Shown: positions 41,919 to 49,886 of the stretch, in pieces
Layout of the letters: each line of letters begins with the position of its first letter
Position numbering within the stretch: position 1 is the first letter of the stretch
NCBI GenBank assembly: GCA_003223395.1
Contig: QHUZ01000038.1
Location: forward strand, 1-49,886
Direction of reading: 5' to 3'
DNA from: Gemmatimonadota bacterium
Lineage (GTDB): Bacteria > Gemmatimonadota > Gemmatimonadetes > Gemmatimonadales > GWC2-71-9
DNA: 49,886 nucleotides
The notes under the pieces: model-generated
Database searches by the model: none
What the model was told of the DNA's origin: nothing
What the model saw: the letters and a program-made list of their open reading frames with translations, nothing else
Program-made: the position numbers and the translations under genes

Positions 41919-42728
41919 ATGCGATCGGCTGGTAATCCCGTGGATGAGCGCCGCAGCGGGACCGAGCGCCGCTCCGGCAGCGACCGCCGCGAGATGATCG
42001 TGGAAGAAGCCGCCACGCTGCCGTTGCACAGCGTCTTCCCGCACGCCCGGCTCAGCGACAGCGAAGCCACCGAGCGTGCCGCCGCGATCGAAGCGCATCG
42101 CCGCGAGCTCGGGAACCGCTTGGGCCGCAACGTCGGCGCCGTCGTCGCCGCCGTGGACTACATGCTCAACATCAGCCGCGACCTCGTCTCCCCGACCATC
42201 GTCGAACACGAGGCGCTCGAGCAGCTGGAGCACCGCTCGGTCACCGATCCGCTCACCGGGCTGTTCAATCGCTACCACTTCGATGCGACGATGACCCGGG
42301 AGATCGCGCGCTGCCGCCGCTATGGCGTGCCGCTCTCCCTGCTCCTCGTCGACGTCGATCGCTTGAAGTTGATGAACGACCGCTGGGGCCATCACGCCGG
42401 CGACCAGGCCCTCGGCCGCGTCGCGGTGGCGATTCAGAAGAGCCTGCGTGGCACCGATATCGCGGCCCGGCTGGGCGGCGACGAATTCGCCATCATCCTG
42501 CCCGACACCGACGCCGTCGCGGGCTTGATCGTGGCGACCCGCATCCGCCGCAACCTCGTCGAGAACGCGTCCACCATGGTGACCGTCAGCGGCGGGCTGG
42601 TCGAGCTTCCCCGCGATGTCGACGTGTCCACCGCCCAGCTGATGCTGGTCGCGGACCATGCGTTGTACGCCGCGAAAAACTCCGGCGGTAACTGCGTGGT
42701 GCAAAGAGAGTATCAGTCGGACGAATAG
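41919..42728 (+). CDS. Diguanylate cyclase (GGDEF), soluble
   Basis: Makes c-di-GMP from two GTP. It has 269 residues: an N-terminal basic stretch (DERRSGTERRSGSDRREM), a short helical part (residues about 45-105) and a GGDEF domain from about 105. The active site is ARLGGDEFAIILPDTD, preceded by the inhibitory RxxD site (LRGTD) five residues upstream, so product feedback is expected. DPLTGLFNRYHFD and LLLVDVDRLKLMNDRWGHHA are the expected nucleotide and metal contacts. No signal-sensing domain is visible. The gene lies between the TPR gene and the two tRNA-Glu genes. Confidence 0.93.
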   Translation: MRSAGNPVDERRSGTERRSGSDRREMIVEEAATLPLHSVFPHARLSDSEATERAAAIEAHRRELGNRLGRNVGAVVAAVDYMLNISRDLVSPTIVEHEALEQLEHRSVTDPLTGLFNRYHFDATMTREIARCRRYGVPLSLLLVDVDRLKLMNDRWGHHAGDQALGRVAVAIQKSLRGTDIAARLGGDEFAIILPDTDAVAGLIVATRIRRNLVENASTMVTVSGGLVELPRDVDVSTAQLMLVADHALYAAKNSGGNCVVQREYQSDE

Positions 42729-42742
42729 TTTGTCTCTGCTGA

Positions 42743-42814
42743 TGCCCCCAAGGGGAATCGAACCCCTGTTCCCACCTTGAAAGAGTGGTGTCCTAGCCGT
42801 TAGACGATGGGGGC
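42743..42814 (-). tRNA. tRNA-Glu (TTC)
   Basis: On the minus strand: acceptor GCCCCCA/TGGGGGC, anticodon stem CCACT/GGTGG with loop CTTTCAA (anticodon TTC), T arm AGGGG-TTCGATT-CCCCT and discriminator A. Class I fold of 72 bases. Confidence 0.97.
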
Positions 42815-42842
42815 GGCGTGCACGTGCGCGAGGGATTTGGAG

Positions 42843-42915
42843 TAGCGGTAACGGGATTCGAACCCGTGTTTGAGCCTTGAGAGGGCTCCGTCCTAGTCCC
42901 CTAGACGATACCGCC
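42843..42915 (-). tRNA. tRNA-Glu (CTC)
   Basis: On the minus strand: acceptor GGCGGTA/TACCGCT (first pair is G-U), anticodon stem GAGCC/GGCTC with loop CTCTCAA (anticodon CTC), T arm ACGGG-TTCGAAT-CCCGT, discriminator A. It lies 28 bp from the first tRNA-Glu on the same strand, presumably one transcript. Confidence 0.95.
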
Positions 42916-42981
42916 GTCGGCCGCTGAATATCGCCGGTTCGCGCGGACAGGGTCAACCCAGTTTGCTGATCGTAGATGGAG

Positions 42982-43001
42982 GGGCGCAGCATGCTGCGCC
43001 C
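42982..43001. repeat. 20-bp perfect palindrome (REP-like)
   Basis: GGGCGCAGCATGCTGCGCCC is its own complement and is followed by TACC, in the non-coding stretch between the tRNA-Glu pair and the membrane GGDEF gene. Palindromes of this shape occur as dispersed extragenic repeats in many GC-rich bacteria; only one copy is visible in this window. Confidence 0.55.
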
Positions 43002-43055
43002 TACCTTATCCGGCCTGTTGACCTTCTGCTTGCTTTTCGTACCGTTACTGGCCCG

Positions 43056-44252
43056 ATGAAACGTCTCGTCTCCAAGTTCGTGCCCGAAGTCCTGCTGCTC
43101 GCCGCGGCGGCTGCGTTGTTGACCATGCCGTCGCTGCGCGGTACCGCCACGGGCCTCGCCACGGTTTTCCCCTTCGCCGTGGTCGCTGCGGCCCTGCTGC
43201 TGGGCTGGCGCTTCAACCGGTCCCGGCTGGTCTTCGCGATCGCGCTGCTGGCGCTCACCGAATACTTGCTGCTGAAGGGCGTGGACACCCAGCGAGAGCG
43301 CGTCTACTTCCACGCGCTGACGTTCCTGCTGCCGATCAACCTGGCGCTGGTTGCACTCTTGCCCGAGCGCGGCACCCTGACCCCCGCCGGGCTGCTGCGC
43401 TGGGTACTGCTCGGCGTGGAGGTCCTGGCGGTCGTCTTCCTGGCGCAGTCCTTCCCGGACAAGGCGCTCAAGTTCCTCACGGCGCGGCTGCTCCCTGGCC
43501 GGCTCACCGCGTGGACGCCCATCGCGCCGCCATCGATCGTTGCGTCCGTCGCGATCGGCGCGCTGCTCGCGCTGGCCTGGTGGCGCGAGCCGCAGTCTCC
43601 GGTCCGCGGCTACTGCTACGCGCTCATCGCCGTGTTCGCCGGGCTGTCGTGGCCGGCGGCGGGACCGGGTCAGGAGATCTGGCTGGCGACGGCAGGCCTG
43701 ATCCTCGTGATCGCGGTGATCGAAGCGTCGTACATGATGGCCTACCGCGACGGCTTGACCGAGCTCCCGGGCCGGCGCGCGCTGAATGAAGCCCTGCCCC
43801 GGCTCTCGGGGCAGTTCAGCGTCGCGATGGTGGACGTCGACCATTTCAAGCGCTTCAACGACACCTACGGACACGACGCGGGCGACCACGTCCTCCGGCT
43901 CGTCGCCGCGCGGCTCGCGCAGGCGCCCGGAGGCGGGACCGCGTATCGCTACGGCGGCGAGGAGTTCGCCCTGGTCTTTCCCGGCAAGGGCCAGGACGAG
44001 TGCCTGCCGCATCTCGAGGAGTTGCGCGAAATCGTCGAGACCAGCCGATTTACCATGCGGCGGCGGTTCCGGCCGCGGGTCAAGCCGAAGAACGACAAGG
44101 GCAGGAAGACCCGTCAGGCAATCACGATCACGGTGAGTATCGGCGTCGCGGAGCGGAACCACCGGAACACGTCTCCCGATCAGGTCGTGCAGGCGGCGGA
44201 CAAGGCTCTCTATCGGGCCAAGGAGGCAGGACGAAACCGCGTCTCTATCTGA
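43056..44252 (+). CDS. Membrane-bound diguanylate cyclase (GGEEF)
   Basis: Diguanylate cyclase of 398 residues. The start is ATG 43056 (MKRLVSKFVPEVLLLAAAAA). About seven membrane helices fill the first 220 residues. The GGDEF domain begins YRDGLTELPGRRALNEALPR, and the active site is YRYGGEEFALVFPGKGQDE, with SVAMVDVDHFKRFNDTYGHD ahead. No RxxD inhibitory site precedes GGEEF. A basic insert of about 20 residues (TMRRRFRPRVKPKNDKGRKT) interrupts the domain before ITITVSIGVAERN. The stop overlaps the next coding frame. Confidence 0.92.
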   Translation: MKRLVSKFVPEVLLLAAAAALLTMPSLRGTATGLATVFPFAVVAAALLLGWRFNRSRLVFAIALLALTEYLLLKGVDTQRERVYFHALTFLLPINLALVALLPERGTLTPAGLLRWVLLGVEVLAVVFLAQSFPDKALKFLTARLLPGRLTAWTPIAPPSIVASVAIGALLALAWWREPQSPVRGYCYALIAVFAGLSWPAAGPGQEIWLATAGLILVIAVIEASYMMAYRDGLTELPGRRALNEALPRLSGQFSVAMVDVDHFKRFNDTYGHDAGDHVLRLVAARLAQAPGGGTAYRYGGEEFALVFPGKGQDECLPHLEELREIVETSRFTMRRRFRPRVKPKNDKGRKTRQAITITVSIGVAERNHRNTSPDQVVQAADKALYRAKEAGRNRVSI

Positions 44253-45247
44253 TCCTTCCTTTCATCTTATATGCCCCCGGCCCTGCAAGCGCACAGAGCC
44301 TCTTCCACGATCGTGCCCCGCTCACCCTGCAGCTACAAGGAGACCTGCACGCGCTATTTGGCGATCGCGGCACGCAGCGCAAAGACCACGCCGCGACCCT
44401 GCGGTACGGTGGCGGAGCCGACACCGGCAGCATCGAGGTCAAGCTGCGGACACGCGGCATCTTTCGGTTGAAGCGGTGCGGGTTTCCACCGATCCGTCTC
44501 GACCTTCCTTCCAAGCAGCTGGGGAACACGCCCTTCGCCGGTGAGGACAAGCTCAAGCTGGTCACCCACTGCCAGGGCGACCGTTCCTACGAGCACAACC
44601 TGCTCCGCGAGTACGCGCTGTATCGCGTGTTCAATGCCGTGACCGACAGCAGCTTCCGGGTGCGGCTCGCGCACATGACATACATCGATTCGGCGCGCCA
44701 TGACACGGTGACGCGCTACGGATTCCTGATCGAGTCCGACACGGCGCTGGCGAAGCGGATCGGCGCCGATCAGATCCACAGCAACAACGTCTACGATCCG
44801 ATGACGGACCCGTCGTACATGACGCTGGTCGACGTCTTTGAGTACTTGATCGGCAATACCGACTGGTCGGTGTGGAAGCGGCACAACATCGCGTTGTTCC
44901 AGACGCTGCCGGAGCCTCGCGTGCTGCTCGCCGTGCCGTACGACTTCGATTTTTCCGGCGCGGTGAACGCACCCTATGCAGTGCCTCCGGAGCAGCTCAA
45001 GATCCAATCAGTGCGCCAGCGGGTGTATCGCGGGTTTTGCCAGCCCGACAGTCTGCTCGCCCGCGTCCTGGCGCGCTTTCGCGCTGCGAAAGACTCGATG
45101 TACGCCGCGGTTCGCGCGGTGCCCGATCTTCCGGAGCGGGACGTCCGCAATGTGCTCGACTACTTCGACGAGTTCTTCAAGGTCATCGACAATCCGGGGG
45201 TCGTGAATCGCGAGCTCGTACGCCCCTGCCGGCGGATGCCCACGTGA
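44249..45247 (+). CDS. Secreted CotH-kinase-like protein
   Basis: Protein of about 332 residues with a hydrophobic leader (LILPFILYAPGPASAQ) and no ATG, GTG or TTG near it. The frame is open upstream through the GGEEF gene to an ATG at 44000. CTG 44249, overlapping the GGEEF stop, is my provisional start. Conserved-looking parts are NLLREYALYRVFNAVTDSSF, VDVFEYLIGNTDWSVWKRHN and VLLAVPYDFDFSGAVNAPYA. The pattern N-DW-xxx-HN followed by PYDFDFSG recalls the CotH atypical-kinase family. CotH genes are known to co-occur with VTC-type polyphosphate polymerases; here a polyphosphate kinase gene follows. Confidence 0.65.
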   Translation: MILPFILYAPGPASAQSLFHDRAPLTLQLQGDLHALFGDRGTQRKDHAATLRYGGGADTGSIEVKLRTRGIFRLKRCGFPPIRLDLPSKQLGNTPFAGEDKLKLVTHCQGDRSYEHNLLREYALYRVFNAVTDSSFRVRLAHMTYIDSARHDTVTRYGFLIESDTALAKRIGADQIHSNNVYDPMTDPSYMTLVDVFEYLIGNTDWSVWKRHNIALFQTLPEPRVLLAVPYDFDFSGAVNAPYAVPPEQLKIQSVRQRVYRGFCQPDSLLARVLARFRAAKDSMYAAVRAVPDLPERDVRNVLDYFDEFFKVIDNPGVVNRELVRPCRRMPT

Positions 45248-45330
45248 ACGCGCGTCGCGTGTTCGGGTTGGCCGGCGACATTGCGGCGCTGCAGATCACC
45301 GGCGTGCGTTTCGAACCGCGCGACTCATGA
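45244..45330 (+). CDS. Possible 28-residue coupled micro-ORF
   Basis: Starts at GTG 45244 inside the stop of the CotH-like gene (GTGA) and ends at TGA 45328-45330 inside the start of the polyphosphate kinase gene (ATGA). It reads VNARRVFGLAGDIAALQI and so on. The double 4-bp overlap fits translational coupling, and its third positions are GC-rich. It may simply be a ribosome bridge or chance. Confidence 0.35.
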   Translation: MNARRVFGLAGDIAALQITGVRFEPRDS

Positions 45331-48300
45331 TCCTGCGTTGGGACGCTCCGGATGCGGCGACGCTCCGGCGCGCGCTGGCCGATTTGCCGCATCCCGCGTC
45401 ACGATTGCGTTCCACGAATTTCCGCGACGTGTATTTCGACACCAGCGATGGTGACCTGCGCACGCGCGGCGCCCGCTGCCGGTTGCGCTTTACCGCCGGC
45501 GGCGCGCGGTCGTTGACCCTCTGGCAGCCCGACGGCACACATATAGAGGAACGCGTACGGGAGGTGGACGCCGTCGCCGCACTCAACGGAACGTCGCCAC
45601 CCGCCATCCGCCTCCGCGCGCTGCTCGATCCAACGCGTCTCGTGACGTGGATCGAGCGCGATGTGGACCGTACCTGCCGCACCCTCAGACTGCCCCTGAT
45701 CGCGGTTCCGCTGTGCGATGTCGTTGTGGATGGGATCGTGCTGCGCCGCGGTGAAGTCGTCGCGACGCTCACGGAGCTGAGTGTGCACCCGCGGCCCTGG
45801 GGACAGGGCGCGGCCGGCCGCGTCGCGCGAGCGCTCGAAGCCGCGGTGCCGCTGCGGCCGGCGGGCAACGATCCGCTGCAGCGCGCGCTGAGGGCGCTCG
45901 ATGCGGTCGAAGCCGAGGGGATCGGCCGCGAGCTGCGTGGCGAACGAGAAGTCGCGCTCGTCGCCGTCGAGCACGGCCGCGTGGGATTGTGCCGTTCGGG
46001 CGCCGAGCTGCGGCTTCCGGTGCACCGCGGCAGCGGGGAAGCGGCGTGCCGCGCCGCGCTGCGCGAGCTGCTCGGCAGCGGTGAGGGACAGCTGCGACTC
46101 CTCGGCGTCGTGCCGCGCTCGGGCGACCGCGTACCGCTCGAGGTGTGGACGGCGCGCCGGCTGCACCGCCACTCGAGCAATGGCGAGACGCTGCAGTGGT
46201 TCACGCCCGCCGATCTCGTCGCGCGCGTCGGCTCTCCCATGCTGCGGGACCCCGGCACGCTCGCCGCCCTCACCGTCGCGGCCCGCTCGCCCCTCGTTCC
46301 CGAGTGGTCGGGCGCGCCGTTCGGGGACGTGACGGAAGCGGACGACGCGCAGGCGCCGGACGCAATCGCGCACGACAGCCGGGTCACGCTCACCGAGCTC
46401 CGCGTGGCGACGCTGCCCGACCAGGCGAAGGACCCTGCCCGGCTGGCACCCGAGCAGTATCTCAACGCGGAGCTGTCGTGGCTCGAGTTCAACGCGCGCG
46501 TCCTCGAGCTTGCCGAGGATTCTCGCACACCGCTCGCGGCCCGGCTGCGCTTTCTCAGCATCTTTTCCACGAATCTCGATCAGTTCGTCATGACGCAGAT
46601 CGGCGCCCTGAAGCAGCTCGTGGCGGTCGGTCGCAACGTTGCGGCTGCGGACGACGGCGGCCTCAAGCCGCAGGCAACACTCGATGCGTTTGCGGTGCGG
46701 CTGGGGCCGCTGCTCGCCAGGCAGTATCGCACCTTTCGGACGCTGGCACCCGCTCTGTCGATCGTTCGCTGGGCAGACCTCGCGGACGACGAGCGCACAC
46801 AGCTGCGCGCCCGCTGCGCCGACGAGATCCTTCCCTTTGTCAGTCCCAAGGCGCTGACCCGCGCGCCCGGACATCCGTTCCCGGTGGTGGGCGACCGCCG
46901 TCTCGCCCTGCTGGTCGCGCTGCGCGACCAGCCGGGCGCGGGCCCCCTGCATTACGCCATCGTGGAGCTGTCGCCCGAGCTGCCGCGGTTCATTGCCGTC
47001 TCGCCGGACGGCAACCAGATCGCGACGGAGGACCTCGTCCGCGCCAATCTCGATTTGCTCTATCCAGGGCGCGTCATCTCCTCCGCCCACGCGTTTCGGC
47101 TGACGCGCAGCGGCGACTTGCAGCTGGACGAGGCGACGACTGCCAATTTCCTCCAGGCGATCGAGGAGGAGCTGGTCCGGCGCCAATCTCGCCCGGTGCT
47201 CCGCATCGAGTTCGAGTCCGGCACGCCGCAGGCCCTGCAGGATCTGCTGCAACGCGAGCTGCGCTTCGAAGAAAGCGAGCGCGAAAGCACGCTGAGCGCT
47301 GCCGACGTCTACGTCTCGGACGGCGCGGTCGATCTCGGGGGCCTGCGCGAGATCGCGGCTGCGGCCTCGCTGCCCGATTATCCCGCATTCGTCCCGGCGC
47401 AGCGCTTCGAGTCACAGCGCAGCGTGGCCGAGCAGCTCGACCAGCGCGACGTGCTCGTCCATCACCCTCACGATTCGTTCCCCGGCAGCTTCGAGCGGTT
47501 CATCATCGAGGCGGCGGAAGACCCGAGTGTGCAGGCGATCAAGCTGACGTTGTATCGGCCGGGGGGACCGTCGACGATCGCAAACGCATTGCGAGGGGCC
47601 GCGCTCGCCGGCAAGGATGTCTCCGTCGTCGTCGAGCTCAAAGCGCGATTCGACGAGGCACGCAACATCGCCTGGGCCAGAAGTCTGGAGCGGGACGGTA
47701 TTCACGTGGTCACGGGACTCGTGAGCCTGAAGACGCACGCCAAGCTTGCCTTGATCGTGCGCCGCACCGCCGACGGGCGAGTCCATCGTCACGCCCACGT
47801 GGGCAGCGGCAATTACAATCCCGACACCGCCCTGGCCTACACCGATGTCGGGCTCTTCACCGCCGATCCTCGCATCACGGCGGATGTGCACGCCCTGTTC
47901 AATGAGCTGACCGGGTCGAGTCACGCGCCGCGGCCGCAGCTGCGGCACCTGCTCGTCGCGCCGACCACGTTGCTCCAGCGTCTCCTCGCGCTCATCGAAC
48001 GCGAGACCGAGCAGGCGCGCGCCGGCCGTCCGGCACACATCCGCGCAAAACTCAACGCGCTGTCCGACTCCACGGTCATCCAGGCACTGTACCGGGCATC
48101 ACAGGCGGGCGTTGCCGTGGACCTCGTGGTGCGCGGCATCTGCACGCTCCGCCCGGGCGTGCCGGGACTGTCCGAGCGCATTCGCGTCGTGAGCATCCTC
48201 GGTCGCTTTCTGGAGCACGCGCGGATCTACCACTTCGGCCATGGCGGTGAGGAGGAGTACTACATCGGATCAGCCGACTGGCGGCCCCGGAATCTCCGCC

Positions 48301-48437
48301 GCCGGGTGGAGGTCGTGGCTCCCGTGTTCGATCCGACTGCCCGGCGCACCTTGGACCGCATCCTGACACAGGAGTTGAACACGCCGACGGCCTGGCTGCT
48401 GCGCCCGGACGGCGGGTACGACCGCCTGCAAGGCTAG
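45327..48437 (+). CDS. ppk1: Polyphosphate kinase 1 with N-terminal CYTH and Nudix-like domains
   Basis: Protein of 1036 residues, against about 700 for ordinary PPK1. Residues 1-185 form a CYTH (triphosphate tunnel) domain: FRDVYFDTSDGDLRTRGARC, RLRFTAGGARSLTLW and EVVATLTELSVHPRPW; the N-terminal ExExK signature is absent. Residues about 205-330 resemble a Nudix hydrolase with a degenerate box (LVAVEHGRVGLCRSG, GEAACRAALRELLGSG, ETLQWFTPADLVARV). The PPK1 core starts near 375 (QYLNAELSWLEFNARVLELA). It contains the phospho-accepting His804 in SLKTHAKLALIVRR, HVGSGNYNPDTALAYTDVGL, and the second site HARIYHFGHGGEEEYYIGSA then DWRPRNLRRRVEV. It makes polyphosphate from ATP. There is no stop or frameshift between the domains. 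Confidence 0.88.
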   Translation: MILRWDAPDAATLRRALADLPHPASRLRSTNFRDVYFDTSDGDLRTRGARCRLRFTAGGARSLTLWQPDGTHIEERVREVDAVAALNGTSPPAIRLRALLDPTRLVTWIERDVDRTCRTLRLPLIAVPLCDVVVDGIVLRRGEVVATLTELSVHPRPWGQGAAGRVARALEAAVPLRPAGNDPLQRALRALDAVEAEGIGRELRGEREVALVAVEHGRVGLCRSGAELRLPVHRGSGEAACRAALRELLGSGEGQLRLLGVVPRSGDRVPLEVWTARRLHRHSSNGETLQWFTPADLVARVGSPMLRDPGTLAALTVAARSPLVPEWSGAPFGDVTEADDAQAPDAIAHDSRVTLTELRVATLPDQAKDPARLAPEQYLNAELSWLEFNARVLELAEDSRTPLAARLRFLSIFSTNLDQFVMTQIGALKQLVAVGRNVAAADDGGLKPQATLDAFAVRLGPLLARQYRTFRTLAPALSIVRWADLADDERTQLRARCADEILPFVSPKALTRAPGHPFPVVGDRRLALLVALRDQPGAGPLHYAIVELSPELPRFIAVSPDGNQIATEDLVRANLDLLYPGRVISSAHAFRLTRSGDLQLDEATTANFLQAIEEELVRRQSRPVLRIEFESGTPQALQDLLQRELRFEESERESTLSAADVYVSDGAVDLGGLREIAAAASLPDYPAFVPAQRFESQRSVAEQLDQRDVLVHHPHDSFPGSFERFIIEAAEDPSVQAIKLTLYRPGGPSTIANALRGAALAGKDVSVVVELKARFDEARNIAWARSLERDGIHVVTGLVSLKTHAKLALIVRRTADGRVHRHAHVGSGNYNPDTALAYTDVGLFTADPRITADVHALFNELTGSSHAPRPQLRHLLVAPTTLLQRLLALIERETEQARAGRPAHIRAKLNALSDSTVIQALYRASQAGVAVDLVVRGICTLRPGVPGLSERIRVVSILGRFLEHARIYHFGHGGEEEYYIGSADWRPRNLRRRVEVVAPVFDPTARRTLDRILTQELNTPTAWLLRPDGGYDRLQG

Positions 48438-48534: not shown

Positions 48535-49886
48535 ATGAGCACAGCCAGCGCCGACCGCCTGCGCACCCGAGCTGCGGTCGTCGCCGCACTTGTCGTCGCC
48601 GCGCACGCCGGGGTCGTCCTCATCGGTTGGGCCGCTGGTTGGTCGCTCTTCCTCGTTCCCTCACCCAGCTTCATTCCGATGGCGCCCACGACCGCGCTCG
48701 CATTTCTCGCGTTGAGTCTGGCGCTCGTCGCGCGCCTCGTGGCACCCGCGCGCTCGCCGCTGCGCAATGCCGGCACCGTCGTGGCGTGGGTCGCCGCCAC
48801 CCGGTCGCGCTCGCACTACATCGGTGCGCTGGCCACGATCGCCGCGATCGTCGGCGCCACTGTCGCGCTGGGATACGCGTACGGGACGCCGCTCCTCTAC
48901 GGCGGTGGTACGATTCCCGTCGCACTCCCGACCGGTTTGAGCCTCCTCATCCTCGGCGTCGCCGCGGTCCTCACGGCTGGTCCCGAGGTGTGGCCGCTGG
49001 ACCGGCTGGTCGGCGACGAGCCGCGGGCGCGGATGCTGCGGGCGTTTCTCCCGGCGACCGCCGGACTGATCGTCCTCATCGGCTTGCTCGATGCACGGCT
49101 GGGCACGCTGTTCGGCGGGGACCGTGTCTTGATCGCCGCCTGGTTCGCCGTGATCGGTGTGGCGCTCGTCGCCCTGCTCGTCGCGCGGCTGTCGCGCCAC
49201 ATCGCGTCGAAGATCGATCGGGCCAACGCGGAGCAACTTCACGCCGAACACCGCTATCGCGACATGTTCGACCAGTCCCTGGCCGGCGTATCCACGACGC
49301 GCGTCAGTGATGGACGCATCGTGCTGTGCAACGAACGGCTGGCCACGATCTTCGGATATGAGTCCGCCGCGGAGTTCATGGAGCACACGGCCCGAGACCT
49401 CTGGTGGGATCCGGCCGATCGCGATCGCATGGTTGCCGCTCTGCGAGAGTCATCCACGCTGCGCAATTACGAAGTGCACATGCGGCGCAAAGATGGGAAA
49501 CCGCTTTGGCTATTGTGCAACATCACGCTGCGAGAGGGGGAGAACGGAGAGGCGCTGCTCGACAACCTCACGGTGGACATCAGCGATCGCAAGTCGCTCG
49601 AGCAGCAACTGTGGCAAGCCCAGAAACTCGACGCGCTCGGCAGTCTGGCCGGTGGGGTCGCCCACGATTTCAACAACCTGTTGACGGCGATCATCGGTTA
49701 TGCCGACATCCTGCGCGACGACCTGGGGACGAATTCCCAACACGCGGAAGACCTCAACGAGATCATTAAGGCGAGCGATCGCGCCGCAGCATTGACGCGA
49801 CAGCTGCTCGCATTCTCCCGCCGGCAACCGTTCGATCCCAAGTCGATGCGGATCGATGAGCGCGTGACGGATATGGAGAAGATGCT
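48535..49886 (+). CDS. Membrane sensor histidine kinase with PAS domain, N-terminal part
   Basis: About 450 residues are present; the right edge cuts the gene. About seven hydrophobic helices fill residues 1-225. A PAS domain follows (RYRDMFDQSLAGVSTTRVSD, NERLATIFGYESAAEFMEHT, YEVHMRRKDGKPLWLLCNIT). Then comes the DHp helix pair with the phosphoacceptor His in LGSLAGGVAHDFNNLLTAII. The ATPase domain lies beyond the edge. The start is ATG 48535; it may be separate from the polyphosphate kinase gene, 97 bp upstream. Many HDFNN-type kinases end with a receiver domain, which cannot be judged here. Confidence 0.9.
   Translation, partial: MSTASADRLRTRAAVVAALVVAAHAGVVLIGWAAGWSLFLVPSPSFIPMAPTTALAFLALSLALVARLVAPARSPLRNAGTVVAWVAATRSRSHYIGALATIAAIVGATVALGYAYGTPLLYGGGTIPVALPTGLSLLILGVAAVLTAGPEVWPLDRLVGDEPRARMLRAFLPATAGLIVLIGLLDARLGTLFGGDRVLIAAWFAVIGVALVALLVARLSRHIASKIDRANAEQLHAEHRYRDMFDQSLAGVSTTRVSDGRIVLCNERLATIFGYESAAEFMEHTARDLWWDPADRDRMVAALRESSTLRNYEVHMRRKDGKPLWLLCNITLREGENGEALLDNLTVDISDRKSLEQQLWQAQKLDALGSLAGGVAHDFNNLLTAIIGYADILRDDLGTNSQHAEDLNEIIKASDRAAALTRQLLAFSRRQPFDPKSMRIDERVTDMEKM

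Follow-up and report, generated by a model that had tools for sequence, protein, structure and literature searches.

A PPK1-type polyphosphate kinase preceded by degenerate CYTH and Nudix domains in Gemmatimonadetes

Introduction

Polyphosphate kinase PPK1 makes much of bacterial polyphosphate and, to our knowledge, the post-translational control of its output is poorly understood. The E. coli enzyme, Ppk, consists of four domains (PF13089/PF02503/PF17941/PF13090). A tunnel-fold domain is associated with polyphosphate synthesis in eukaryotic Vtc4/VTC and in bacterial VTC polymerases (PMC6973038), and in Acidithiobacillus genes for CYTH-CHAD proteins and for PPK are known to lie next to each other (PMC6416229; PMC10892726). 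For E. coli YgiF, an inorganic triphosphatase composed of TTM and CHAD domains, the roles of residues, i.e., metal-binding glutamates and phosphate-binding arginines, were assigned (PMC4641920). Nudix domains with an impaired box were described as effector-binding domains of NrtR and AraR, with ADP-ribose or arabinose as the effector (PMC4666351). Accumulation of polyphosphate was described for Gemmatimonas aurantiaca (Zhang et al., 2003, as cited in PMC10581226).

Here, a gene of a Gemmatimonadota bacterium is analysed that lies on contig QHUZ01000038.1 (the window, i.e., the whole stretch of 49,886 nucleotides that was analysed) and in which PPK1 is preceded by two further domains, related to CYTH and Nudix proteins. 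The three folds are known; their combination, its pattern of degeneracy, its range within the class and the replacement of the module by DUF4956 appear undescribed in the literature covered, and a search of partial journal coverage gave no description of a CYTH-PPK1 or Nudix-PPK1 fusion, of DUF4956 with polyphosphate or of CotH with a VTC domain. The fusion is a variant of PPK1 and not a separate kind of system. With two conserved, retired phosphate- or nucleotide-binding folds placed on a widespread PPK1 paralogue, control of output becomes testable within one polypeptide.

The fusion gene and its PPK1 core

45327..48437, + strand, CYTH - pseudo-Nudix - PPK1 fusion, complete ORF, 1036 aa
46317..46457, + strand, linker, residues 331-377, the least conserved part
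46458..48428, + strand, PPK1 core, residues 378-1034
47736..47738, + strand, phosphorylated histidine H804 (E. coli H435)
48216..48218, + strand, second catalytic histidine H964 (E. coli H592)

The ORF is intact, opening with ATG and containing no internal stops. Its start (MILRW or an equivalent) is conserved among relatives and the in-frame residues upstream are not, which supports the choice of this ATG. The Pfam models assign the N, middle, C1 and C2 domains of PPK1, in this order, to residues 378-1034, with E-values of the four matches between 2.5e-25 and 6.6e-61. Besides the two histidines, further residues of E. coli PPK1 are kept, namely R375 (R744 in the fusion), R405 (R774) and D470 (D840). 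The active site is complete at every catalytic residue checked, and ATP-dependent synthesis is predicted. In all these respects the protein resembles E. coli Ppk, from which it differs by an N-terminal extension of 377 residues that holds two further domains. An earlier note on this DNA, which had put the extension at about 370 residues and had seen the phosphorylated histidine and the second motif in the core, was accurate on both points. The fusion is the only PPK1 copy found in the source genome, which is 97.6% complete.

Among the relatives, the closest one (L024, G005:C54:24080-25960) lacks in frame about 32 residues of the core, the phosphorylated histidine among them, which may be either a real loss or an assembly error. 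The position of R405 (E. coli numbering) is occupied by serine in eight fused PPK1s that belong to two separate groups (L068, L140, L154; and L061, L149, L152, L157, L160).

The CYTH domain

45330..45935, + strand, degenerate CYTH/TTM domain, residues 2-203 (Pfam PF01928, hhalign and mapping to YgiF)
45480..45488, + strand, R52-L53-R54, equivalents of the phosphate-binding R56/R58 of YgiF

The Pfam CYTH model (PF01928) matches residues 28-78 with an E-value of 4e-5, its score of 23.8 bits lying just above the gathering cut-off (23.2), and it is matched by all seven members of the genus. When the profile of this domain was compared by hhalign with 26 true CYTH proteins of related genomes, a probability of 93% and a score of 51.2 were obtained, while the maximum score among 100 column-shuffled profiles was 16.4 and the control probability 0.1% (for the profile comparisons, negative controls were made by reversing profiles or shuffling their columns). 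The likeness to YgiF extends from the profile to the region YFDT..L..RG...R.R and to the pair of phosphate-binding arginines; the domain differs from YgiF in that ExExK and the other metal-binding glutamates are mostly lost and that it is covalently joined to PPK1.

An active CYTH/TTM metalloenzyme needs the ExExK motif and the C-terminal metal-binding glutamates. In the window protein all four glutamates are absent and there is no ExExK, since E4 and E6 are gone and K8 is replaced by R4, just as the earlier note, which had called a CYTH domain without its signature, described it. Across the fusion family, mapping by alignment gives retention of E4 in 12%, E6 in 32%, E160 in 23% and E162 in 3% of sequences, the last position being mostly arginine; the C-terminal strand may be misaligned to YgiF by two residues, and a corrected alignment would then leave one glutamate in place. 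True CYTH proteins of related genomes retain the ExExK and E160 positions. The phosphate-binding arginines of the family are conserved (R56, here R52, in 82% and R58, here R54, in 91%), a basic residue occupies the K8 position in 79%, R33, R115 and R118 are found in 98-100%, and the position of YgiF E158 is acidic in most members (82% E). Judged from these alignments, the CYTH domain has lost most of its metal-binding glutamates and kept the basic residues of the tunnel, of which the simplest reading is a tunnel that would bind phosphate and not hydrolyse it. An AlphaFold2 model of residues 1-377, built from seven close sequences, reached a pLDDT of 39.6 and gave no usable picture of a closed eight-stranded tunnel; its best Foldseek match was the YgiF tunnel protein 5a60 (E 4e-3).

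The Nudix domain

45936..46316, + strand, degenerate Nudix domain, residues 204-330, related to NudE/ADP-ribose pyrophosphatase
46038..46076, + strand, remnant of the Nudix box helix, residues 238-250

No Pfam model matches the middle region (residues 204-330) and its profile gave only chance-level matches against PDB sequences, so that profile-profile and fold comparison were needed. A search with this profile in 298 genomes of the phylum returned, after the fusion proteins, six ORFs that were read as NudE/ADP-ribose-pyrophosphatase-type enzymes; four of these were scanned and gave matches to the NudE, NudK and YffH/AdpP models. Weak matches in two genomes (G123, G149) were set aside, as by eye they did not look like Nudix enzymes. 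In the hhalign comparison general Nudix proteins gave a probability of 79% (score 35.6, null maximum 14.9) and the six NudE-type enzymes gave 92% (score 45.7, null maximum 15.3, 106 columns), a figure not independent of the profile search by which these enzymes were picked. The AlphaFold model of the middle domain alone is of moderate confidence (pLDDT 58.7). Nearly all of its top 50 Foldseek matches in the PDB are Nudix proteins (best E 1.2e-4), VIA-align gave Z 10.1 and rmsd 3.1 over 116 residues, and AraR structures 5bs6 and 5dd4 occur among the structural matches. Nudix homology of this region, on which the profile search, the profile-profile comparison and the structure search agree, is well supported; absence of a Nudix fold, named in the earlier note as an argument against its Nudix-like domain with a degenerate box, is not what the structure search returned. 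The fold assignments are well supported as such; the mechanism is inferred.

The box GX5EX7REUXEEXGU, needed by active Nudix hydrolases, is not present in the fusion. The glutamate positions of REUxEE are acidic in 0%, 35% and 4% of 71 family sequences, and the G-E of the region has E in 87% of the family. By these residues the Nudix box is dead, its metal ligands being lost. The likeness to NudE and ADP-ribose pyrophosphatases covers 106 columns at 24% identity, including the C-terminal helix D..T..AL..AAR, and the Nudix fold; in contrast to those enzymes, the box is deprived of metal-binding glutamates and its loop is shortened. A parallel may also be drawn with NrtR and AraR, in which an inactive Nudix domain is the ligand-binding part of a larger protein. 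However, the winged-helix DNA-binding domain that follows Nudix in those regulators is absent here, and as the linker and PPK1 stand in its place, an enzyme would act as the output domain.

In five genus pairs, dN/dS lies at 0.03-0.18 in the pseudo-Nudix domain, at 0.09-0.17 in the PPK1 core and at 0.19-0.34 in CYTH, which means that purifying selection acts on all three domains (0.03-0.34), strongly so on the pseudo-Nudix domain. CYTH is the fastest-changing of the three. Within the extension the pseudo-Nudix domain is conserved best, and in four pairs out of five its value is lower than that of the core. Since it changes as slowly as a catalytic core, the retired Nudix domain has probably retained some binding function.

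Distribution and history of the fusion

Of 394 genomes of the class, 73 carry the N-terminal module, and they represent 39 of its 143 genera; the same architecture occurs in other genomes of the genus, the family, the order and the class, and all three parts are present at most of the loci read. The source genome is a draft assembly of 123 contigs, which might raise the suspicion that unrelated pieces were joined by chance or during assembly. This suspicion is refuted by the recurrence of the same junction in those 73 genomes, and purifying selection on either side of the junction and a coherent phylogeny leave it practically no credence; the fusion is not confined to one assembly, the case the earlier note had held out against its own reading. 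A scan of genome contigs with six peptide patterns returned six Gemmatimonadetes MAGs and one ordinary PPK1 (Fontibacillus), and the pattern search in plasmids and viral contigs returned none. A frame of 2600 residues in G251, considered as a longer fusion, was rejected because it is a run of N.

The PPK1 tree (92 rows, a quick method, SH-aLRT support only, Fontibacillus as outgroup) places 28 ordinary PPK1s, that of Fontibacillus included, on one side of a branch with support 99 and the fused proteins on the opposite side, so that the fusion forms a paralogue group separate from ordinary PPK1. With the root among the ordinary PPK1s, a single origin of the fusion is implied, followed by a loss of Nudix in one group and of both CYTH and Nudix in a single member (G058). 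CYTH-PPK1 devoid of Nudix is carried by four members of one family (G041, G377, G394, G167). The module was thus probably acquired once by a PPK1 paralogue. In three genomes (G014, G015, G032), whose proteins form one clade with support 99, DUF4956 (PF16316) stands in place of CYTH-Nudix, apparently another undescribed PPK1 fusion.

DUF4956-PPK1 loci: L204, L205, L206; L228:5926-8721, L229:5957-8878, L230:5628-8444

The module is therefore not indispensable to the PPK1 family, in which Nudix was dropped, both domains were dropped or both were exchanged for DUF4956. The occurrence of CYTH-Nudix-PPK1, CYTH-PPK1 and DUF4956-PPK1 in one tree offers a ready-made natural comparison.

Gene neighbourhood

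44222..45247, + strand, CotH-related upstream neighbour (conserved position; start codon approximate)

A CotH-related gene, whose product has a signal-peptide-like start by eye, ends 79 bases upstream of the fusion gene. It precedes the fusion in the genus of the window and in several other genera, it precedes the CYTH-PPK1 members too, and in G032 it lies directly before DUF4956-PPK1; within the stretch read beside the fusion it was not seen in other lineages. The Pfam CotH model is matched by two of nine members of the neighbour family (best 1.6e-6), the copy of the window being unmatched. By its conserved position, this gene is likely a partner of the fusion. Two GGDEF proteins are encoded upstream of the gene pair (41919-44252 of the window), and a PAS histidine kinase is encoded downstream of the fusion gene (48538-49884).

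Possible function of the N-terminal module

In the mechanism proposed here, PPK1 would have gained an N-terminal module built of two retired phosphohydrolase domains. The CYTH tunnel would bind a phosphate chain or a triphosphate without cutting it, the ligand of the pseudo-Nudix domain would be an ADP-type nucleotide, as in NrtR, or some other compound, and the PPK1 core would receive the binding signal, so that chain synthesis is switched or biased; alternatively, the tunnel may hold the growing chain for the core. That the two domains in this way regulate PPK1 or handle its chain is given a probability of about 0.5. Polyphosphate sensing and control of synthesis, the function suggested in the earlier note, would fit the loss of metal-binding glutamates with the retention of arginines, and kinship of the Nudix part with ADP-ribose and ADP-sugar enzymes points to a nucleotide signal as much as to polyphosphate. 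Taken together, the two catalytically retired domains suggest a sensor built into the chain builder.

Instead of binding a small ligand that controls activity, the module might be structural, mediating oligomerisation or a tether to the CotH-related partner or to the membrane. The conserved neighbour suggests such a partner, and DUF4956, which takes the place of the module in the sister group, has several membrane-like segments by eye, thus the N-terminal slot may serve placement. Yet no transmembrane segments were noticed, by eye only, in residues 1-377, and a tunnel that keeps basic and loses acidic residues is more specific than a scaffold requires; we hold docking as a possible but rather unlikely role. 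Another explanation is a sensor of nucleotide only, in which the pseudo-Nudix domain reads ADP-ribose, NAD or other ADP-X and gates PPK1, with CYTH as a spacer or a dimer interface. The affinity to NudE and ADP-ribose pyrophosphatases, the strongest conservation within the extension and the ADP-ribose-responsive precedent of NrtR all speak for it, whereas the four members with CYTH-PPK1 and no Nudix imply that CYTH has its own use, and we regard this explanation as unlikely. It is quite improbable that the module is still enzymatic and, with an unusual metal arrangement, trims short polyphosphates or a nucleotide. The glutamates at the E158 (82%), E6 (32%) and E160 (23%) positions and in the G-E of the Nudix region (87%) could serve such an activity, but the TTM metal ligands (PMC4641920) and the glutamates of REUxEE are mostly gone, and the window protein has none of the four TTM glutamates.

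A VTC polymerase was found in one of 149 genomes of the class examined (G136), where the gene order is VTC, DUF4956, a TPR protein and a CotH/beta-helix protein (L242:4433-9999). With this cluster the kin of the window fusion share two kinds of partner, DUF4956 and the CotH-related gene; the link of the PPK1 family to a VTC setting is a lead from one cluster, for which the evidence is thin. The VTC domain (PF09359) has no match in the fusion protein or in the genome of the window. Like Vtc4/VTC, the fusion ties a tunnel-fold domain to polyphosphate synthesis, but its polymerase is PPK1 and its tunnel domain a degenerate accessory. A more far-reaching version of the proposed mechanism, a self-regulated PPK1 whose tunnel holds or measures the product chain while the pseudo-Nudix domain reads an ADP-type nucleotide, would mirror in a single chain the SPX-VTC logic of eukaryotes, and its setting, linked to CotH and DUF4956, would be one in which VTC is employed by other bacteria; it is put forward as a doubtful, speculative extension.

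Accompanying and truncated copies

An ordinary PPK1 is present besides the fused one in several genomes, and in G014 and G015 it accompanies DUF4956-PPK1. In G032 two different PPK1 genes stand side by side, as an ordinary PPK1, a histidine-phosphatase-family protein and a CHAD protein are encoded in a row (L230:1408-5631) that faces the DUF4956-PPK1 gene. The CYTH-Nudix-PPK1 of G197 (L159:1052-3139) comprises the N and middle domains of PPK1 only and ends before the catalytic C-terminal domains, which makes it either a decaying copy or a regulatory derivative.
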